In this document: positions 32,804 through 46,313 of the stretch, piece by piece
How positions within the stretch are numbered: the first letter of the stretch is position 1
Layout: each line of letters begins with the position of its first letter
Assembly: GCA_025655455.1 (NCBI GenBank)
Contig: JAHXIV010000050.1
Coordinates: forward strand, 174,338 to 238,337
From: a gamma proteobacterium symbiont of Taylorina sp.
Lineage (GTDB): Bacteria; Pseudomonadota; Gammaproteobacteria; GRL18
DNA length: 64,000 nucleotides
Reading direction: 5' to 3'
Notes under the pieces: model-generated
Told to the model about the DNA's origin: nothing
Databases searched by the model: none
The model's input: only the letters and a program-made list of their open reading frames with translations
Made by a program: the position numbers and the translations under genes

Positions 32804-32848
32804 TTGACATGGTGGGGGTCGGTGGTTCGAATCCACTCGCGCCTACCA
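32804..32848 (+). other. Attachment-site repeat: 3' half of tRNA-Val(GAC), left copy
   Basis: These 45 bp run from the anticodon loop (TTGACAT) through the T-arm (GGTTCGAATCC) to the 3' CCA of a tRNA-Val(GAC). The 5' half (D-arm, AGCTCAGTTGG) is absent upstream, so this is not a functional tRNA gene. The identical 45-mer recurs at 42355-42399. The pair bounds a 9.55-kb element with a tyrosine integrase, so these are its att sites. The 294 bp between the last phage gene and this site hold no gene that I can see. Confidence 0.9.
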
Positions 32849-34235: not shown

Positions 34236-34310
34236 CAGACAAAGCCTACCCCTCTAATAATGAGGAATCGGAAAGCCACAGGTTTCTATTTGAGACAGCT
34301 GGGTTGCCTG
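34236..34310 (+). promoter_or_regulatory. Probable cyclic-di-GMP-I (GEMM-I) class riboswitch
   Basis: P1 pairs CAGACAA (34236-34242) with TTGCCTG (34304-34310), with one A-C mismatch. A short hairpin CCTC/GAGG follows the 5' CAAAGCC. The segment GGAAAGCCACAGG leads into a second stem (GTTTC/GAGAC) closed by CAGCTGGGTTGCC. The order CAAA-CC, hairpin, AAAGCCAC-GG, hairpin, AGC-GGGTTGCC is the GEMM-I consensus. A small GCTC/GAGC hairpin lies between the aptamer and the start codon. It lies 45 bp before a secreted adhesin gene, a typical target. Ligand choice (c-di-GMP or cGAMP-type) cannot be decided by eye. Confidence 0.6.
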
Positions 34311-34355
34311 TATTTTGCTCATATTGAGCCATATCGTTAGTACGGGGTAAGTATC

Positions 34356-35369
34356 ATGAAGACATATCAATTGTTCCTAACTCTACTGTGCTCTATTTTT
34401 CTCTTTATGAGTACTCAAGCCATCGCTGATGACAATGACCTCGATAAAAGTAAAGCTCTGATGATTTCTGAAATACACACTGCCTATGCTGTGAATGACG
34501 AAGGCGTGGATGTAATCACTTTAACTATCAAAGGGATTAATTTTTTAGATGAAAAAGGTGAAGTACCTTCTATTTCAGTCGGTCATAACCGTTTGGATTA
34601 TACTGTAGATAGTTTCAACGACAACGAGCTTGTATTAACTGCTACCCTAGAAGATGGTGATTACCTGATAATGGTAAGTAGTGATAATAAATTTAAAGAT
34701 GAAAAAACTGCTTTTTATGATTTAACGATTGGTGCTGTAGGACCACAAGGATCAGCAGGTGCTGATGGTACTAATGGTGCTGATGGTGATATGGGTGCTA
34801 AGGGTGATACTGGAGCAACAGGTGCTAAGGGTGATACTGGAGCAGCAGGTGCAACAGGATCAGCAGGTACTGATGGTACAAATGGTACTGACGGGGTATC
34901 AGGTAAGGTGGCATTAGCGGGTCTAATGTGTGGAGAGGATCAATACCTTCAAGGATTTGATGTTAATGGTGATTTAGTTTGTGTTAATAATTCAGCGGGC
35001 GCGACTGTATTTCAGGTAGGAATTACAGGTCCTTCCGGTGGTACGGTGTTTAGGGTATCCCATGACGGTTTGACTGGTGTTGAGGTTAACTTAAATGCAC
35101 AGGGGGTAATGACATGGAATGATGCTAATGATACCGCGACAGCGTATGCTGGTTGGCGATTACCCACGTTGGAGGAATTAGATTTGATTGATCAGATAGA
35201 GCAGTTCCCGAAGTTTGATGTAGTAGGAGAAGCCGCGATTTTTTGGTCGTCAGAATTAGGTGCGGGAGATTATTATTATATGATATGGTATCGAGTTTTG
35301 AGTGGCGTAAAACACGGGCGGGGCGACATGGATTATCTTTTTAACTCAGTATTCGTTAGTGATTTTTGA
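34356..35369 (+). CDS. Secreted collagen-like adhesin with Lcl-type C-terminal domain
   Basis: The product is 337 aa. Residues 1-24 are a Sec signal peptide (LTLLCSIFLFMSTQAIA). Residues ~28-125 look like an IPT/TIG-type beta-sandwich (ITLTIKGINFL). Residues ~129-180 are Gly-X-Y collagen-like repeats (MGAKGDTGATGAKGDTGAAG). The C-terminal ~120 residues match the Lcl_C/DUF1566 domain (GGTVFRVSHDGLTGVEV, AGWRLPTLEELDLI, FWSSE), a C-type-lectin-like fold known from the Legionella collagen-like adhesin. The final ~45 residues, where DUF1566 proteins are most variable, are atypical here. A reverse transcriptase gene points at its 3' end. Confidence 0.88.
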   Translation: MKTYQLFLTLLCSIFLFMSTQAIADDNDLDKSKALMISEIHTAYAVNDEGVDVITLTIKGINFLDEKGEVPSISVGHNRLDYTVDSFNDNELVLTATLEDGDYLIMVSSDNKFKDEKTAFYDLTIGAVGPQGSAGADGTNGADGDMGAKGDTGATGAKGDTGAAGATGSAGTDGTNGTDGVSGKVALAGLMCGEDQYLQGFDVNGDLVCVNNSAGATVFQVGITGPSGGTVFRVSHDGLTGVEVNLNAQGVMTWNDANDTATAYAGWRLPTLEELDLIDQIEQFPKFDVVGEAAIFWSSELGAGDYYYMIWYRVLSGVKHGRGDMDYLFNSVFVSDF

Positions 35370-35396
35370 GTAGCCAGTTTAACGGTTTTTTCAATA

Positions 35397-36527
35397 TTAA
35401 CTTGTTAGACCCAAATTCGGGTTTTGAGCGATGGGTAATTTACAGGGTTTGTTCGTAATATCATTCAATAGGGCGAGTACCGAATCTGTTATTGATTGTG
35501 TTATCCCAATATACCATCCTTTCCACCGCTTGATATACTGACCAAGCCTGTTGTTTCTTTTTGAAGCATCAGGCTCTTGCTCATAAAGCCGGTTCAGTTT
35601 ATCGCTAAAACGCTGTAATGCTTTTTTGCAAGGTAACACAGTCCCTGCCACAAACTGCAATCCTAAAAAGTCAAACCCCTTAGAAATCTTTCCCATACTG
35701 GTTTTATCCGGATGTTGTTTCAAACCCAGTGCTGAGATGATGGCATTAAATTTAGCAATAGCTCTGCGGTTTTTCCAACGGGTTTTCGTTAGTATTAAGA
35801 TATCATCCATATAACGAATATAATAACAATCTTCCTGCTCAAGGGCTTGATCCAGTTCGTACAAATAAAAAGCCCCTAATAACGGGCTTAATGGACTGCC
35901 TCTGGGGAGACCTTTAATTATATCCTGATAAAGTCCACCCCTTTCAACTGTGCGGTGCATACTAAACCAGAGTAAACGCAATAAGAATTTATCTTTAATA
36001 TACAGCGCACTTTTATCTATCAGTTGATGGTGGTCAATGGATTCATAATAATGATAAATATCGGTGCGAAAAACAAATTGATACTCTGGCAGAGCTTGTC
36101 TTATTTCTTTACAGACTTGTTTGATTCCTCCATTACCTTTCAAATGCATACATCTGGTGGAACTGGGTAATAGCTGACTAAGTATTTGAGCCAGTGCTTT
36201 TAATACGATAGCATCGAGTGTACCCCATAGATGAATTGTTTCACCGGATGCTTTTTTTATTCTTTGTAGAGGACTAAAATGATATTGCTGCGTAATAAGC
36301 AGTTGATATAAACGGGGTAACACAACAAGCCAATGAAAACAAACATCCCAAATATCTGTATTGTAGTGATAGTGTCGGCGTTGTTTGCATGCCCACTTGA
36401 AACAGAATTCCAGTAATTCTAAAGAAAATAGTTGGTTTGATATAGGCATTTGTAAATGTTCGCTGTCTGGAAATTTAAGATTGAGTTGTACTGGCTCAAA
36501 ATTGCAGGAATAGTTCATTAGCGTCAT
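35397..36527 (-). CDS. Reverse transcriptase, retron/group-II-like, unclassified
   Basis: The product is 376 aa. RT motifs are in order: motif A VFRTDIYHYYESID, motif B GLPRGSPLSPLLGAFYLYEL, motif C YIRYMDDILIL (catalytic Asp-Asp) and motif D/E QHPDKTSMGKISKGFDFLGL. A short thumb-like C-terminus (YIKRWKGWYIGITQ) follows. There is no maturase X or HNH endonuclease domain, so it is not a standard group II intron protein, and motif B lacks the GNLTSQ typical of diversity-generating retroelements. It converges on the adhesin gene with a 27-bp gap. The template and function are unknown. Confidence 0.9.
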   Translation of the reverse strand: MTLMNYSCNFEPVQLNLKFPDSEHLQMPISNQLFSLELLEFCFKWACKQRRHYHYNTDIWDVCFHWLVVLPRLYQLLITQQYHFSPLQRIKKASGETIHLWGTLDAIVLKALAQILSQLLPSSTRCMHLKGNGGIKQVCKEIRQALPEYQFVFRTDIYHYYESIDHHQLIDKSALYIKDKFLLRLLWFSMHRTVERGGLYQDIIKGLPRGSPLSPLLGAFYLYELDQALEQEDCYYIRYMDDILILTKTRWKNRRAIAKFNAIISALGLKQHPDKTSMGKISKGFDFLGLQFVAGTVLPCKKALQRFSDKLNRLYEQEPDASKRNNRLGQYIKRWKGWYIGITQSITDSVLALLNDITNKPCKLPIAQNPNLGLTS

Positions 36528-36546
36528 GCTACTCTTTGTTTTAAAT

Positions 36547-36688
36547 TGTCAGCAGTTTGGTATTAGGAGATAATTATTTCTTCACTCAATAATATATTAT
36601 TAAAAATATTCATACAATTCATAATCACTGTTATAGATCAAAATTGCCGATGCAAGTTGCAGATAGTAGTAGGGTTAAATTGCTGACA
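36547..36688. repeat. 142-bp segment with 12-bp terminal inverted repeats upstream of RT
   Basis: TGTCAGCAGTTT at 36547-36558 and AAATTGCTGACA at 36677-36688 are inverted copies with one mismatch. The AT-rich segment between them has no gene. It could be a MITE-like remnant or the structured leader or template RNA of the reverse transcriptase that starts at 36527. No target-site duplication was seen. Confidence 0.5.
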
Positions 36689-36705
36689 CAACATATTATT
36701 ACACC

Positions 36706-36909
36706 TTAGTTATCTATCCCACGATAATGTTTCATTCTATATATAGTATTTCTATGACGCCCCAAAATCAACCCCAGTTTATATGCGCTGTATAAGCCTA
36801 TAGCAGGATATATTATATTAGAGTCTATCTGATTGTATCCCCAAAAAAGCCCCGTATATAGGGCTATTTTGACCTTGAGTTCAATTTTTAAACAGTCGAT
36901 AGATACCAA
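36706..36909 (-). CDS. Doubtful small protein with HTH-like segment
   Basis: A 67-aa frame begins with TTG and contains YKLGLILGRHRNTIYRMKHY, which could be a helix-turn-helix. There is no good ribosome site and no family match known to me. It lies between the RT leader and the presumed replication region. It may be non-coding. Confidence 0.25.
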   Translation of the reverse strand: MVSIDCLKIELKVKIALYTGLFWGYNQIDSNIIYPAIGLYSAYKLGLILGRHRNTIYRMKHYRGIDN

Positions 36910-37485
36910 GTTACAATAATTATTATTAAAATTAACTTTTGAACTAAATCCATAATATTAGACAGGTGTATAATTACCTCCCCCCCCTTAGATTTGGGCT
37001 TAAAATAACCATGTATCAGATATTTTTAATAATAACTAGACATTAGTAAAAATATTATCTTGTAGAAGCCGTACACCAGGCTATAATAGAGAAATTATCC
37101 CCCACCTGTATGACCGAACTGTATAGATACACTATATATAGCTATGCTTATTGTTACCCCCGTTTTATACTGCTTGTTATTACTGCCCCGCTTATTTATC
37201 TATTGGTTGCCGTATAGCCCCAGTTCCCCCCAAATTTATGGCCTATAGGAAATATTGTACTCAAGTACAAAATAAGCCAATACTCTAAAATTAGGGGGGG
37301 AAGCTATTAAACATACTACTCCCCCTAATATAGTAATAAGTAGAATAGAGAGAATAACTGGAATAAGTGGCACAGGTCAATAACCACATGGGTTATAACA
37401 CACCAAGCATAGCTATACCCCTCCTTTCTCGGCTTCGCTTATTCCACTTATTCCCTACTCAGGGGGCGGGGTAATACTATATACA
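36910..37485. other. Non-coding replication/packaging region candidate with nested inverted repeats
   Basis: The stretch holds repeat copy B (about 36990-37130), C8 and G7-8 homopolymer runs, and three inverted repeats. These are ATTAGGGGG/CCCCCTAAT (37290-37298 with 37321-37329), GGAATAAGTGG/CCACTTATTCC (37360-37370 with 37444-37454), and ATAACC/GGGTTAT around 37380-37396. It directly follows the primase-helicase gene, the usual place of an origin in satellite elements. No gene is seen. Confidence 0.5.
36990..37130. repeat. Imperfect ~130-bp repeat, copy B
   Basis: This partner of 33053-33187 is in the same orientation. The best blocks are ATCAGATATTTTTAATAATA, then ACACCAGGCTATAATAGAGA and TATGACCGAACTG. 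The spacing between blocks differs by a few bases, so the copies are old or under selection only in parts. Confidence 0.65.
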
Positions 37486-39420
37486 TTAATAAACCCTGTC
37501 ACTCTTGATATAAGTGATTTTATTATTAGCAGGGTGTTTTGTTGCATCCCACAATCTACATGTACCTTTAGAAAAGTAGTCCAAGACTCTTTTAATAGTT
37601 TTCTTCCCGACACTGGCTGTATTATGGCAGTAATTTAAAATATCAATCTGAATATTTTTACCTTGTTCCAAAGCATCAAGAATAGCTAATATGGTATCTT
37701 CATCTTTAGATTTCTGAGCCTCACATCTAAGTGATTCAGAAACATCTTCATAGTCAGTTTGTGATACGTTTCGTTCAGGATCAATTTCAAAAGTAATAGG
37801 AACAAAAGTTCCCCTTGTTTTATCAGGTCTAGTTGAAACGGTTATACTTCCATCAGGGTTCTCTTTTGGGATCATATAAATTAGTTCATCAACATCTGAT
37901 CTTAAATCACCTGTTCCCTCAAATATCAGCTCACCATCATTGATAGTGTATTTGTTAGTATGACACAGTAAGATTATCGTCATACCTTTAGCTGAAAGCC
38001 CTCTGAGGGTTTCATACAGTCTTTTTGACTGAGTCTTATTAATAACATCTGTCATCTTTTTAAGTGTGTCAAAAATAAATAGAGTGTCGTTATAATTCCG
38101 ATCTACCTTGTTCATTTGTTCCAGAATATTAACAATATCAGTCATTGATTTTCCAACTTGCATATCTGGTAATAAAAGTTTAAATCCATATTTGTTTGCT
38201 TGTTGATGATAGTATTTTGCATCAACATCTGGCACATCTGCATTTACATAAAAGACGTTAATATCTTTAGCTAGTTGTCCAGCAATATCCATAAGAATAG
38301 TAGTTTTTCCTCCATTTGAGGGAGCGGGGATTGCTATGACATGGCCTTTAATAATTAGGTTATCAAATAACCATTCTGGATCAGAAATATTCGCCATATC
38401 TTCATCTGAAACAGTAAAATCATCCACCCAAGACATATCTAGAATAGCCTCTGTAGGAATCAGGGTAGTTGATATTTGGGGTAATAATTTATTATATTCA
38501 TCAACTGTTCTACCATCAGGTGCAAGTGAATTCTCTGCAGCATAGATAACAGCCTCATTAAATGATAAATCTAACCTATGCATCATTACATCAAAAGAAC
38601 TATGAGCATTACCATCACAAAGAGGATCGCTTGAGTGATGAGAATACATCATGCTATCTTTAATACTAATACCTGCATTACCTGAATCTGAAGTATGAGA
38701 AAGCCATTTATCACCCTGCTTAGTATCACCTCTCAGTCTTAGCTCATCTTCTATAGTATGTTGCTCGTTATAAGCCTCTATGGGGCTTATTTGGCCATTA
38801 GAAAGACTATTACATACCTTCGGCTTATAATCCCTAAAAGCTTGTTTCTCATCTTCCTTGCACACCCATCCATCTGGTATGTTTTCCTCAAAATAATCTA
38901 TAACCTGCTGAGCATGTTCCACTGTCAGAATAGGAAGCTCATTAAGTAATATGTGAGTTAATTCTTCCAATGGATAATAATAAGGCTCATCAGTATCAGG
39001 GTGAGTACCATAGGCAACAAACTGCTGTCCATCTCCAAGTATTTCTATCTGATTTTTTGTCTCCTGATTTTCACCTGACCAGTAAGTTTTACTGACCATC
39101 TTCTTAAAAGGTTTAACTGTACGGTAAATTAACAGTCTTTTGGGTTTTTGGCCTACTCGAACAACTGTTTTACCAATAAGATCATAACAGAATTGTTGCA
39201 TACGTACAGCAAGCCTTCTGCTTCTAATATCAATATCAATACAGGGAGTATTCTTTGTTAATATTCCAACAGAATAACCTTGATTCTGATATTCTTGTAG
39301 CTCAACATAACTATGATCTTCTTTGTCAGCCCAACCAGATAATATTGGCCTTTTACTGTTTGGGGCGACAGGTGTTAAGGCATAACCGTTTTCTGATAAA
39401 GTATGGAAAGGATAGCTCAT
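37486..39420 (-). CDS. Satellite replication protein: primase-polymerase plus RepA-like helicase
   Basis: The product is 644 aa. Residues 1-190 look like an archaeo-eukaryotic primase/PrimPol domain (NGYALTPVAPNSKRPILSGW; acidic pair in CIDIDIRSRRL; then EILGDGQQFVAYGTHPDTDE). Residues ~350-590 are a RecA-type hexameric helicase with Walker A PAPSNGGKTT and Walker B TLFIFDTLKK, and HTNK near the sensor. The C-terminus is a small helical DNA-binding domain. This matches the multifunctional initiators of P4-like satellites and integrated plasmids. It overlaps the upstream gene by 4 bp. Confidence 0.85.
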   Translation of the reverse strand: MSYPFHTLSENGYALTPVAPNSKRPILSGWADKEDHSYVELQEYQNQGYSVGILTKNTPCIDIDIRSRRLAVRMQQFCYDLIGKTVVRVGQKPKRLLIYRTVKPFKKMVSKTYWSGENQETKNQIEILGDGQQFVAYGTHPDTDEPYYYPLEELTHILLNELPILTVEHAQQVIDYFEENIPDGWVCKEDEKQAFRDYKPKVCNSLSNGQISPIEAYNEQHTIEDELRLRGDTKQGDKWLSHTSDSGNAGISIKDSMMYSHHSSDPLCDGNAHSSFDVMMHRLDLSFNEAVIYAAENSLAPDGRTVDEYNKLLPQISTTLIPTEAILDMSWVDDFTVSDEDMANISDPEWLFDNLIIKGHVIAIPAPSNGGKTTILMDIAGQLAKDINVFYVNADVPDVDAKYYHQQANKYGFKLLLPDMQVGKSMTDIVNILEQMNKVDRNYNDTLFIFDTLKKMTDVINKTQSKRLYETLRGLSAKGMTIILLCHTNKYTINDGELIFEGTGDLRSDVDELIYMIPKENPDGSITVSTRPDKTRGTFVPITFEIDPERNVSQTDYEDVSESLRCEAQKSKDEDTILAILDALEQGKNIQIDILNYCHNTASVGKKTIKRVLDYFSKGTCRLWDATKHPANNKITYIKSDRVY

Positions 39421-42354: not shown

Positions 42355-42399
42355 TTGACATGGTGGGGGTCGGTGGTTCGAATCCACTCGCGCCTACCA
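42355..42399 (+). other. Attachment-site repeat: 3' half of tRNA-Val(GAC), right copy
   Basis: This is the second exact copy of the 45-bp tRNA-Val 3' half (see 32804-32848). Again the 5' half of the tRNA is missing upstream, where only element DNA is found. It marks the right boundary of the element. Confidence 0.9.
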
Positions 42400-42837
42400 A
42401 TTAAATCAATAGCTTAGATGGTTTAGTTGGTATTTCAAAGACTAATCGGTGGTACTTTTGGTGGTACTTCGGTGTTTTGAGTCTCTTCTTAGTGGTACTT
42501 TTTCGTTATATTCAATCTTATAAAATCCATCCATAAATCATAATTATTTAACTTGTTAATGCATTATGAAGTGGATAATAATTTTCATCCCACTTTTTAG
42601 GACGTCCTGCACGTTTTTTATCTTTCATTTTAAAAGTCCTTTAATTTCTAAACCCCAGAAACGCAAAAACCCCCTGCTGATTGCTCAACAGAGGGTTTAA
42701 TCTCACTTTATCTAGTTGTACTACATTTATAGGGCTTTGTCAGTTAGTTTGGGGACTTTTATTTCACAATGCATTTTTTGTTAAATACTCAGCTACTTCT
42801 TTGCCCTTTTTTATGGCGTGACATTTAAAAGGTAAAG
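42400..42837. other. Non-coding flank right of the att site
   Basis: No gene is seen. The motif GGTGGTACTT occurs twice close together (42448-42469), and AGTGGTACTTT recurs near 42490, which may be arm-type sites or debris of another integration event. A minus-strand mini-frame (42556-42630, MKDKKRAGRPKKWDENYY) looks like a cut-off N-terminus of a gene. A terminator-like hairpin (42667-42698) closes the operon to the right. Confidence 0.45.
42667..42698 (-). terminator. Hairpin terminator of the toxin-antitoxin-chaperone operon
   Basis: AAACCCCCTG pairs with CAGAGGGTTT across a short loop with one mismatch. It lies about 140 bp after the stop of the SecB-like gene on the minus strand, which makes it the likely operon end. 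Confidence 0.6.
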
Positions 42838-43323
42838 TTATTCCTCCCTCATTCTTTTAAATGGGATGATAAAATTAGGTAACCGCATTCTGGTTGATAT
42901 GGATGATGCAAATTCTCTCCAATAAGGCCAGACATTAAATCCAACATTAGATGCACCAAATACATTAATTTCTTCTTCTGTCAGTTCCTCTTTCATAAAA
43001 TAAATTGCATTAAATTCTGCTTTTACTTCAACCAAAATACGCTTTTTTAATGATTCTTCATTTGAAGCAATGTCTTCTGGTAAGTCTTTTGGCAATGCTC
43101 TGAACCCAGCCATATAGTGATAGATAATTACATTAACATAATCATCATTATTATTAATATCTCCTAAAGAATGACCAGTAAGCATATTAATAAACTGAAT
43201 ATTCAAAACATCCTTGTTAAAAGTAGGAACAAAGTCATCTTTTTTGCACACATTACATGATGCCAAAGAAATATCATCAATTTCCAATTTCTTTACAGCG
43301 GATATTAATAATTGATCACTCAT
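42838..43323 (-). CDS. SecB-like chaperone of a toxin-antitoxin-chaperone system
   Basis: The product is 161 aa, the size of SecB. The C-terminal part (NVGFNVWPYWREFASSISTR followed by MRLPNFIIPF) matches the SecB signature (cf. FPYAREVIS...FPxxxLxP). The N-terminal half holds the alternating strands of the SecB fold. It is the third gene of an overlapping operon behind a HigB-like toxin and an XRE antitoxin. By analogy with the mycobacterial HigBA1-SecB module it should stabilise the antitoxin and make the cell depend on it. Confidence 0.8.
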   Translation of the reverse strand: MSDQLLISAVKKLEIDDISLASCNVCKKDDFVPTFNKDVLNIQFINMLTGHSLGDINNNDDYVNVIIYHYMAGFRALPKDLPEDIASNEESLKKRILVEVKAEFNAIYFMKEELTEEEINVFGASNVGFNVWPYWREFASSISTRMRLPNFIIPFKRMREE

Positions 43324-43769
43324 TAGCTTTTATACCATTTTGGTTCTTGATTTTCATAATAATGATCATTGCTTGCAAAATTAACTTTCATAGCATTCCT
43401 ACCCTGATTTACATCAACCGGAGCAACGATAAGCCCTTTATTATTGGCTTTATCAATAAAATGATCATCATCATTAAATAAATTGTCAGATTGCTCAGTA
43501 TTTGGCTCAAAACTAACTTTCACTGTAGCATCAAGTGCATAAGCCATATCTGCCAAAGTTCTTAATGTCATATTTCGTGTACCATTTAAAGATTGGGTAA
43601 CATATGATTTTGTTCTGCCAATTAATTTTGATAACTTTGATTTTGTAACATCCATATTTTCCATGAGAATCAAAAAATCTTCTGATGTATTAACAAGCAA
43701 AGATTCTTGTGCATACAACTTTTTAGCTTCTTCTGAATCACCAAACCAACTATTAAAAGTCTTACTCAT
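43323..43769 (-). CDS. XRE-family antitoxin with C-terminal chaperone-addiction extension
   Basis: The product is 148 aa. Residues ~30-95 are a helix-turn-helix (NMDVTKSKLSKLIGRTKSYV, then GTRNMTLRTLADMAYALDA) as in HigA-type antitoxins. An unusually long C-terminal tail (~60 residues) ends in ENQEPKWYKS. In known toxin-antitoxin-chaperone systems such a tail is the chaperone-addiction region, with exposed aromatic residues bound by SecB. It overlaps the toxin gene by 8 bp and the chaperone gene by 1 bp. Confidence 0.8.
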   Translation of the reverse strand: MSKTFNSWFGDSEEAKKLYAQESLLVNTSEDFLILMENMDVTKSKLSKLIGRTKSYVTQSLNGTRNMTLRTLADMAYALDATVKVSFEPNTEQSDNLFNDDDHFIDKANNKGLIVAPVDVNQGRNAMKVNFASNDHYYENQEPKWYKS

Positions 43770-44208
43770 TTTCTATGCCTCTCCAAGTTCTTTTAACCTT
43801 CTCTGTGTCAGCAGAGTCCAATTTTTGTTTTTTCTTATATTTATAATGACTAATAAAAAATACACTAGGAAACTTACTTGAATGCCATCCATAAGCTCTA
43901 ATATTATTATGAGGTTTTACAGCATAAAAGTGTTTTTTATTACCTAGTTTTGCTTCTTTATTAAATTGTTTTGGCATTCTTAGTTTGCCAAATTGTGCAA
44001 GACGCTCCAGCATTGCAAACAATTTAACTTTTATAGATAACGGTGATGCGCCTGTTACATGGCTTAATTCATCGTTTAAATTTTCTGCTGCTTTAATCTT
44101 ATCTTGAGCCTGCCTAATTGTTAATTTAGTGCCAACAATATCTTCCAATTGTTCTGGTTCTGTTGTTTGATCACTAGCATCACCATTGTTGTTAGTATTT
44201 TCTGGCAT
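43762..44208 (-). CDS. HigB/RelE-like toxin
   Basis: The product is 148 aa. The C-terminal ~100 residues fit the RelE/HigB mRNA-interferase layout (FYAVKPHNNIRAYGWHSSKF, VFFISHYKYKKKQK, then a final helix DTEKVKRT). An acidic N-terminal extension of ~35 residues precedes it. It is the first gene of the operon (toxin before antitoxin), the order of the HigBA family. Catalytic residues in this family are not strictly conserved, so activity is inferred. Confidence 0.7.
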   Translation of the reverse strand: MPENTNNNGDASDQTTEPEQLEDIVGTKLTIRQAQDKIKAAENLNDELSHVTGASPLSIKVKLFAMLERLAQFGKLRMPKQFNKEAKLGNKKHFYAVKPHNNIRAYGWHSSKFPSVFFISHYKYKKKQKLDSADTEKVKRTWRGIENE

Positions 44209-44322
44209 TAAATAAATTCTTTTATATAGTTTATATATATATTAACTTTTATGTTTTTTCAAGTCAAACTCCCAAAAGAGATATTATTAACAAAACTGTT
44301 AAATAACTATAAAACTAAAGCT

Positions 44323-44679
44323 CTATTGGATCATTTGTTTTTCTATTAGACATTCGATACACCCCAGCTCAAGTGCATTAAAAATATCGTCAGTTAAAGC
44401 AATATCTCGTTCAGTAGTCTCCTTGCCTGCAATTTGGCGTAACCATAATCTGTGAAAGTTCAGAGTAAAACATTCAATTATTCCCGGTAGAGCTTCCTTG
44501 TACCCCTGACTCCGTGCAAAGTTTTCAAACTCCTCAAGATATTTATCAAAATTCACTAAATCAATATCAAATGCCATTGCTATCTCAAAGAAATGATTTA
44601 TTGAATAAGCCAGTAAGTATTTATTGAAATTCATATCTTGCCTAAACAGAGTGTTGAATGTATGGTTTTCGGTATTCAT
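44323..44679 (-). CDS. Hypothetical protein with start inside a 10-bp tandem repeat
   Basis: The product is 118 aa, starting at the last of three ATGs in the repeat (MNTENHTFNTLFRQDM). It is helical with a hydrophobic core, and no domain is recognised. The only good Shine-Dalgarno (AAGGA, 44706-44710) is spaced for the first ATG at 44699. That ATG opens a 7-codon frame whose TGA overlaps this gene's ATG (ATGA). Translation may therefore depend on reinitiation and on the repeat number. Confidence 0.6.
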   Translation of the reverse strand: MNTENHTFNTLFRQDMNFNKYLLAYSINHFFEIAMAFDIDLVNFDKYLEEFENFARSQGYKEALPGIIECFTLNFHRLWLRQIAGKETTERDIALTDDIFNALELGCIECLIEKQMIQ

Positions 44680-44710
44680 TGGTATTCATTGGTATTCATT
44701 GGTATTCCTT
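44671..44710. repeat. Four tandem 10-bp repeats at a gene start
   Basis: On the minus strand the unit is AATGAATACC, repeated three times after a variant AAGGAATACC that supplies the ribosome-binding site. The unit is not a multiple of three, so gain or loss of a unit changes which ATG is in frame with the downstream gene. This is a candidate phase-variable locus. Confidence 0.9.
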
Positions 44711-44715
44711 GTATT

Positions 44716-45327
44716 TTATACCGCAATTTGCAAGGCGTCTTGCCTGGCCTGGTTAATCTGCTGCATCATTGCATGGTCTCCGCCTTTATCTGGATGATGC
44801 TGTGAAGCAAGCTTTTTAAATGCTCTATTGATTTCTAATTTACTGGAAGTAGAAGCAATTCCCAATAATTTATGACAGGCTTCTTGCTCAATTCCTAATA
44901 ACAACATTGACTGAAGGTTATAACCAAGAATTCCAGTAATAATCCGCTTATTAGTGTCACTGTTGTTACACGCCCACCAATCACGAAAGAATTGACCAGT
45001 CATCCTTTTCTCTCGTTTATCTTCAGGAACACCACCAAAGCTGAATAATGGGTTTGCTACTTTGTGAACTTCATCCAAAAACTTTAATCTTTTATCATCA
45101 AATAACTTTGGTAACAGTGGATGGATCTGTCTGGCATAATCGGGGTAATTTCTAAACCGTGACCAATAATTGTCATGTAAGCGATCACCAAGTTTTGCTT
45201 TATGTTCATCCAGTAGAAGTTGGTACCGGTCTTTGTTGTACCTTAAAGGTCTGGAGGGATTTATTGAACAGTTACTAAATATATTCTTAATATTATGATT
45301 TATATGGATAAAAATAAAAAATTGCAA
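44716..45327 (-). CDS. J-domain co-chaperone-like protein
   Basis: The C-terminal ~60 residues are a J-domain (LGIASTSSKLEINRAFKKLA, then the catalytic HPD in SQHHPDKGGDH) that would stimulate DnaK-type ATPases. The upstream part contains RFRNYPDYARQIHPLLPKLF. The frame opens with a TTG at 45327 and the first ~20 residues are hydrophobic and not family-like. The true start may be further in, or the gene may be truncated at its 5' end. A second J-domain protein of similar layout is encoded at 61731. Confidence 0.7.
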   Translation of the reverse strand: MQFFIFIHINHNIKNIFSNCSINPSRPLRYNKDRYQLLLDEHKAKLGDRLHDNYWSRFRNYPDYARQIHPLLPKLFDDKRLKFLDEVHKVANPLFSFGGVPEDKREKRMTGQFFRDWWACNNSDTNKRIITGILGYNLQSMLLLGIEQEACHKLLGIASTSSKLEINRAFKKLASQHHPDKGGDHAMMQQINQARQDALQIAV

Positions 45328-45435
45328 GTTTTAAATTATTTGCACCTTACTTGAAAGTTATTATTAAATATTAAATTCCAGGAAAAATCTTTTAAATAAA
45401 TTAATTTGTGCTATCATTTGATTACATGTAATTAT

Positions 45436-45765
45436 ATGGTGAATAAAGTGCAATATTTCGGGATTAGAGATTTAAGAGAAAAAATAGGTGATTTTGCCAA
45501 TAGTGCACAGTCAGGGGAAATTAGTATTATTTCTCGTAGTGGAAGACCTTTAACGATAAACATCCCTTTTGATGATGTGCTTATTGAGATGGGGGCACAT
45601 AAATCTTTAGCTATTAAGCTCTATGAGGAGGAAGTTTTATCCTTGAGTAAAGCTGCTAGGTATGCTGGTGTAAAAACAGATGAATTTATAAAATTATTAG
45701 GTGTTGCTGGTATTAGTGTTTTGGGTGATGTCGATTCTCTGAAAAGTGAGTTAAATCAATTTTGA
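45436..45765 (+). CDS. Antitoxin: Phd-like N-terminus fused to UPF0175-like domain
   Basis: The start is ATG 45436 (GTG 45439 is the alternative). The product is 109 aa. Residues ~1-45 (YFGIRDLREKIGDFANSAQS) are a Phd/YefM-type DNA-binding start. Residues ~55-105 (LAIKLYEEEVLSLSKAARYA then GVKTDEFIKLL) match UPF0175 proteins. The fused layout is typical of antitoxins for DUF3368/PIN toxins. It overlaps the toxin gene by 4 bp. Confidence 0.8.
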   Translation: MVNKVQYFGIRDLREKIGDFANSAQSGEISIISRSGRPLTINIPFDDVLIEMGAHKSLAIKLYEEEVLSLSKAARYAGVKTDEFIKLLGVAGISVLGDVDSLKSELNQF

Positions 45766-46313
45766 CTAAAACCAGTTCGATTGATCTTGTTATTGCAGAT
45801 ACGAGTCCATTAATTGTGATTGCAATTATGGATCTATTTCCTGTTTTAAACCAATTATTTGAACGTGTATTAGTACCTGACGCCGTTGTTGATGAATGTC
45901 TGAATGATTTATCCAAGCCCCATTCTCTGGCAATAAAACAAGCATTAAAAGATAAAATCATAGAGCAAAAAAAAATTTCAGATATAGAGTTTTGTCAGTT
46001 ATTAGGACAAGTTTTAGATCCTGGCGAAGCAGAGGCAATTAGTTTAACTAAAGATCTTGATGCAATTGCTTTGATAGATGAAAAAAGTGGTAGGAAGATA
46101 GCCAAAAGAGAAGGAGTTGATTGTATAGGTAGTTTTTATATTTTGATTAAAGCTAAACAAAATGGATTTATTGTATCTGTTGCACCTCTGTTAAAGTGTT
46201 TACTTGATCACGGATATTACCTAAACTCTGCTCTTATAGATACTGTTCTTATTGCCTGTAATGAAATGAACGATGAAAGCAAATCATTATTATCATACTG
46301 TGAAAATAACTAG
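45762..46313 (+). CDS. Toxin: DUF3368 PIN-like nuclease
   Basis: The product is 183 aa, probably starting at a TTG in a TTGA overlap with the antitoxin. The N-terminal IADTSPLIVIAIMDLF carries the first PIN acidic residue. VPDAVVDECL holds the second, and LDPGEAEAISLTKDL with ALIDEKSGRKIAK holds the others. This is the DUF3368 subgroup of PIN-domain ribonucleases. The pair is a type II toxin-antitoxin module. Confidence 0.8.
   Translation: MTKTSSIDLVIADTSPLIVIAIMDLFPVLNQLFERVLVPDAVVDECLNDLSKPHSLAIKQALKDKIIEQKKISDIEFCQLLGQVLDPGEAEAISLTKDLDAIALIDEKSGRKIAKREGVDCIGSFYILIKAKQNGFIVSVAPLLKCLLDHGYYLNSALIDTVLIACNEMNDESKSLLSYCENN

Follow-up and report, generated by a model that had tools for sequence, protein, structure and literature searches.

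In the toxin-antitoxin-chaperone (TAC) system of Mycobacterium tuberculosis (HigB1-HigA1-SecB-TA, encoded by Rv1955-Rv1956-Rv1957) the gene order is the same as in the operon described here, and there too the antitoxin carries a C-terminal tail with aromatic residues. Bordes et al. found that an antitoxin owes its need for the chaperone to the tail, and that tails can be transplanted from one system to another (PMC5105189); the mode of tail binding has been shown by Guillet et al. (PMC6377645). The Vibrio cholerae MqsRA-TAC and the Methylomonas HicAB-TAC were tested in 2016 and are chaperone-dependent (PMC5105189). Antiphage activity is known for the E. coli TACs CmdTAC (PD-T4-9) and HigBAC. 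In CmdTAC the chaperone can be drawn away by phage structural protein (PMC11618068), and HigBAC is triggered by the lambda major tail protein (Mets et al. 2024, as cited in PMC11980606). A sequence-only reading of the present locus had called gammaproteobacterial TACs little studied, a judgement that the work on Vibrio, Methylomonas, CmdTAC and HigBAC qualifies.

The operon considered here lies in a 64,000-nucleotide stretch of DNA from a gammaproteobacterial symbiont of Taylorina sp. (hereafter the window, meaning the whole stretch analysed). HigBA-SecB-type TACs are a known kind of module; what the window operon adds is a sequence-divergent branch of toxins that no family database recognises. 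A toxin family lacking a curated model, together with its chaperones, thereby joins the TACs, which are now of interest as phage sensors. The architecture of the locus, the predicted folds and the coupled evolution of two of its parts make a TAC by far the best reading. We hold with good confidence that this is a TAC operon of the HigBA-SecB type, situated in an accessory stretch adjoining a tRNA-Val attachment repeat and working by a presumed chaperone-addiction mechanism.

The sequence-only reading had drawn a parallel with mycobacterial HigBA1-SecB. This is supported by the predicted folds of toxin and chaperone, which match HigB1 and Rv1957, at structural-alignment identities of about 12% and 17%, respectively. 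No likeness was seen, beyond aromatic residues, between the window tail and the mycobacterial binding peptide WHRLSSYRG. HigBAC, compared here by its description, is gammaproteobacterial and resembles the window operon in combining a HigB toxin, a HigA antitoxin and a SecB-like chaperone, HigC; PMC11980606 assigns the HigBAC toxin to Pfam families, whereas the window toxin falls in none. CmdTAC shares the three-part logic, and the window chaperone weakly matches the PADLOC model of its chaperone, PD-T4-9_C (see below). However, CmdT is an ADP-ribosyltransferase, whereas the window toxin model has its matches among HigB/RelE structures; and PMC11618068 portrays CmdA as a pair of helices with an unstructured tail, where the window antitoxin has a predicted helix-turn-helix (HTH) domain.

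Operon layout and predicted folds

Three intact, co-directed ORFs were found on the minus strand at 42838-44208. Neighbours overlap, the toxin and antitoxin ORFs by 8 nt and the antitoxin and chaperone ORFs by 1 nt, in the sequence TAATG. The features of the locus are as follows.

42358..42398, plus strand: last copy of an attachment-type repeat that duplicates the tRNA-Val 3' end; the operon is outside this copy, at a distance of about 440 bp
42667..42698, minus strand: terminator-like hairpin with a 14-pair stem and a T run, 140 nt beyond the stop codon of the chaperone gene
42838..43323, minus strand: SecB-like chaperone gene, 161 aa, containing WPYWREF and LPNFIIPF
43323..43769, minus strand: antitoxin gene, 148 aa, with a predicted XRE/Cro-type HTH at about residues 32-85 and a tail of about 60 residues
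43323..43505, minus strand: part of the antitoxin gene coding for the tail (residues 89-148), candidate chaperone-addiction (ChAD) element
43762..44208, minus strand: toxin gene, 148 aa, predicted HigB/RelE-type (BECR) fold
44228..44247, no strand assigned: imperfect palindrome AGTTTATATATA/TATATATTAACT, a short way upstream of the toxin's start codon and overlapping a promoter-like -10

The identical three-gene order in relatives and the low dN/dS against the closest relative (toxin 0.11, HTH 0.15, chaperone 0.23; rough values, synonymous sites being near saturation) argue that the ORFs are not due to chance. The three overlapping genes of the sequence-only reading are thus confirmed by the ORF map and by their recurring order. 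The AT-rich, 20-bp palindrome (12-nt arms, complementarity 92%) is largely preserved in the closest relative, L014, despite diverged surroundings, and is a candidate operator for autoregulation by the antitoxin. A promoter-like TTGACT-17-TAATAT spans 44267-44239, promoter matches overall being no commoner than in shuffled sequence.

As a single sequence, the toxin finds no family in Pfam (none at E ≤ 1), NCBIfam, PHROG or PADLOC. None of 27 members of its family matches the Pfam RelE-superfamily models (Gp49, HigB, HigB-like, RelE, ParE and others) at E ≤ 1; the distant L005 toxin weakly matches Gp49. Searches of PDB sequences with phmmer and with the toxin profile returned unrelated chance matches only, and a plasmid search with the toxin gave no match. 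The AlphaFold2 model (pLDDT 88.5, residues 1-20 of low confidence) has the topology strand, two helices, four strands, helix. Its top fold match is Streptococcus pneumoniae HigB (6af4; Foldseek E 8.4e-5, VIA Z 13.3, rmsd 3.4), and comparison with HigB1 of the M. tuberculosis TAC (7awk) gives Z 12.9 and rmsd 2.3 Å. Other RelE/YoeB/ParE-type toxins follow at Z 6-9, so that the list consists almost wholly of the RelE superfamily. The toxin is thus predicted to have the BECR (RelE/HigB) fold, and the RelE/HigB-type toxin named from sequence stands on its modelled structure, without support from Pfam.

K98, R104 and K125 are invariant in all 27 toxin-family sequences. In the model K98 closes strand two of the main sheet, R104 is within strand three and K125 comes directly after strand four. 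Reported catalytic residues are K54, R61 and R81 in RelE and R68, R73 and K92 in S. pneumoniae HigB (PMC9098466). Position and spacing of the window residues agree with both sets, making K98, R104 and K125 candidate catalytic basic residues, and HigB-type mRNase activity is likely by analogy. A weak profile alignment with the Gp49-type toxin of a different TAC, L005, to be taken as a lead only, also places the three on basic residues.

The antitoxin matches Pfam HTH_26 slightly below its cut-off (E 3.3e-4; 21.3 bits against 22) and a PHROG regulator family at E 3.2e-8. Its aromatic-ended tail of about 60 residues comprises residues 89-148 (...HYYENQEPKWYKS), in keeping with the XRE antitoxin and tail described by the sequence-only reading. 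In the alignment, F104 of the window tail occupies a nearly invariant W column.

For the third gene, that reading had proposed a search with the SecB model (PF02556) as a check. The window chaperone matches no Pfam family at E ≤ 1, SecB included, and PF02556 is matched weakly by 5 of 21 chaperone relatives (best E 0.0032). The closest PDB sequence is Rv1957 (E 0.02 with the single sequence, 0.0036 with the family profile), while PD-T4-9_C matches the window chaperone at E 3.1e-4 and 12 of the 21 relatives as well. Plasmid-borne and E. coli relatives found by tblastn carry the annotation SecB and occupy the third position behind MqsA antitoxins, and WPYWRE is invariant or nearly so across the 21 chaperones. 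The AlphaFold2 model (pLDDT 90.0) has Rv1957 (5mtw) as its top fold match (Foldseek E 4.2e-8, Z 14.7, 132 residues, rmsd 2.2), followed by SecB of E. coli (Z 12.8) and Haemophilus influenzae, the range being Z 12.2-12.8. The third gene is thus predicted to encode a SecB fold, with a four-stranded antiparallel sheet and a long helix. The absence of such a fold had been named as what would refute the TAC interpretation; with the fold predicted, and Rv1957 as its best match, the interpretation is not refuted on this point. The labels HigB and SecB therefore derive from structure prediction, PDB sequence matches to Rv1957 and SecB-annotated relatives, not from Pfam on single sequences. Across Pfam, NCBIfam, PADLOC and PHROG, the single sequences gave a name to the HTH alone and, weakly, to the chaperone. 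Since a canonical SecB is encoded separately elsewhere in the genome, the operon's SecB-like gene is an extra copy.

Divergence and exchange of tail and chaperone

Toxin scans yielded 13 loci in genomes and 22 in viruses. With the divergent L005 toxin included, a first alignment had too much variation for use in scanning. The antitoxin of locus L036 was taken from the same contig as L004. At every locus found through the toxin, an HTH antitoxin adjoins the toxin and is followed by a third gene downstream. Dereplication leaves 26 distinct operons, whose third genes are of two kinds: type I, the WPYWRE SecB-like proteins, and type II, shorter proteins of about 133 aa.

Type I chaperones also occur with MqsA-type and Gp49-type pairs. 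MqsA-type SecB TACs are found on a Vibrio crassostreae plasmid, on Acinetobacter plasmids and in E. coli prophages, including phage PhiR70_1. Their chaperones are homologous to that of the window (about 28-40% identity over the matched stretch), but the antitoxin is MqsA and the toxin gene is unmatched by the window toxin-family profile.

In the tree, type II third genes accompany one toxin clade, from enterobacteria and lambdoid phages such as HK639. The operons HK639_49-47 and mEp237_036-034 encode the window's toxin family (36-38% identity over the matched stretch) and an HTH antitoxin. Kinship of the type II third genes of lambdoid phages with SecB is unsupported by profile comparison or PDB sequence search; the short third gene of HK639 and mEp237 (L012, L013) may be a diverged SecB-like protein. 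In both phages the three-gene operon sits between cI and the early genes. Searches of E. coli genomes for HK639-type and L035-type operons gave no match.

The closest relative of the window operon, L014, comes from an Aeromonadales metagenome-assembled genome (MAG). Its toxin is 72% identical, its HTH 75-78% and its chaperone 49%, and the two tails appear unrelated (their alignment scores 10, while shuffled sequences average 11.6). A motif consisting of a hydrophobic pair, seven residues and W is present in 15 of 19 type-I clade tails (1.7 in shuffles), many of which end in AA. CmdA ends in LAA, which is recognised by ClpXP (PMC11618068). The window tail has a relaxed form, Y137-x7-W145, near its end, but neither the AA ending nor the complete motif seen in related tails.

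Divergence is faster in the tail-chaperone part than in the toxin and HTH. Moreover, tail identity tracks chaperone identity once toxin and HTH identity are removed (partial r 0.61 for type I and 0.72 for type II; permutation p 0.0005 over the 26 dereplicated operons), while tail against HTH gives, with the same treatment, -0.20 and 0.40. This correlation is support, not proof, because tests of the Mantel type may overstate significance and adjacent sequences may be inherited as a block; the coupled evolution could partly reflect DNA adjacency. Diversifying selection is not shown by dN/dS, synonymous sites being near saturation in most pairs.

Two operons from gammaproteobacterial MAGs, L018 and L021, were compared site by site. 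Within a segment that begins at the end of the HTH and takes in the tail and the chaperone, they differ at 38 of 860 sites, compared with 245 of 1394 outside (chi-square 84; 500 permutations reach 25 at most). At sites informative with a third genome, L023, the grouping L021+L023 prevails outside the segment (62 versus 15), whereas L018+L021 prevails inside it (124 versus 19). The pattern indicates a natural exchange of a tail and chaperone segment of about 860 bp, unless one of the MAGs is chimeric. Such comparative evidence for joint movement of tail and chaperone is a separate ground for seeing the tail as an addiction element. Given the covariation and co-exchange, the tail is very probably such an element, a candidate ChAD, and tail plus chaperone perhaps form a swappable sensor cassette. 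It is conceivable, though we would stop short of calling it probable, that related operons keep the toxin and DNA-binding domain while the tail-chaperone part is swapped or rapidly re-evolved, retargeting the phage protein that frees the toxin; the window and L014 operons would then be two retargeted versions. The prediction is that a single toxin-antitoxin core would respond to different triggers when combined with tail-chaperone cassettes from different operons.

Proposed mechanism and alternatives

In the mechanism we propose, the HTH antitoxin would repress the operon and block the HigB-like toxin. Its C-terminal tail would leave the antitoxin unfolded or protease-exposed unless the operon's SecB-like chaperone holds the tail. 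Should the chaperone be taken away, most likely by an abundant phage structural protein but possibly by accumulated unfolded exported proteins, the tail would be released and the antitoxin degraded; the toxin would then cleave ribosome-associated mRNA, bringing growth, and any phage, to a halt. Chaperone dependence, proteolysis, RNase activity and the phage trigger we infer from characterised relatives, and the phage trigger is the least certain of these steps. Experiments on other systems offer a precedent for every one of them (PMC5105189, PMC6377645, PMC9098466, PMC11618068, PMC11980606). We take phage sensing of the HigBAC/CmdTAC kind as the best working analogy, not solely the mycobacterial stress model.

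A different trigger would be envelope or protein-export stress, with unfolded exported proteins titrating the chaperone as proposed for the mycobacterial system. Such an export-sentinel model was put forward in PMC4257090, and it gains from the ability of SecB-like chaperones of other TACs, including those of Vibrio and Methylomonas, to replace E. coli SecB (PMC5105189). Yet the host retains its canonical SecB. The toxin family, moreover, occurs in temperate phages beside cI (HK639, mEp237) and in other mobile DNA, and tail and chaperone outpace toxin and HTH in divergence; on these two grounds a changing foreign trigger fits better than a constant host one. We regard an export-stress trigger as unlikely.

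The operon might also be a plain addiction module stabilising an island or prophage, its chaperone being a built-in folding aid without sensing. Its position beside the attachment repeat, integrase genes and a second TA-like pair, as well as its absence from genus-mates, would suit that role, which nevertheless does not account for the divergence and exchange of tail and chaperone alongside a conserved toxin and HTH; we consider it doubtful. Finally, a predicted SecB fold is what one would also see if the third gene were a hitch-hiking SecB paralogue serving protein export next to a chaperone-independent HigBA pair. The overlap of the genes, the downstream third gene in the relatives found and the tail-chaperone coupling make this very improbable.

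The tRNA-Val neighbourhood

Besides the last copy of the tRNA-Val 3' end, next to the operon (42372-42394), a further copy lies at window positions 32821-32843, and the intact tRNA-Val (G000:C2:163783) is about 53 kb upstream of the last repeat. Between the repeats are a prophage-like stretch of about 43 kb and a 9.5-kb element that encodes an integrase, a primase-polymerase and a reverse transcriptase. Three tRNA-Val 3' ends in a row indicate tandem integration at one tRNA. A relative of the operon or its chaperone is absent from all 15 genus-mates, so the operon is accessory. Its other flank carries a UPF0175/DUF3368 pair together with an integrase remnant. In the immediate surroundings of the operon, no known defence genes were identified.

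The reverse transcriptase gene (RVT_1) faces a collagen-like gene in which an Lcl_C domain is weakly matched (34356-36527). The arrangement resembles a diversity-generating retroelement, but a search of 34300-37500 for a template/variable repeat pair (30-nt minimum) found none. Beside the TAC operon, the stretch 44323-45327 includes a gene for a protein with a C-terminal DnaJ domain (44716-45327), separated from the operon by a 118-aa orphan gene (44323-44679) for which no match was found. The UPF0175 and DUF3368 genes (45406-46313) overlap and form an antitoxin/PIN-like pair adjoining the TAC.
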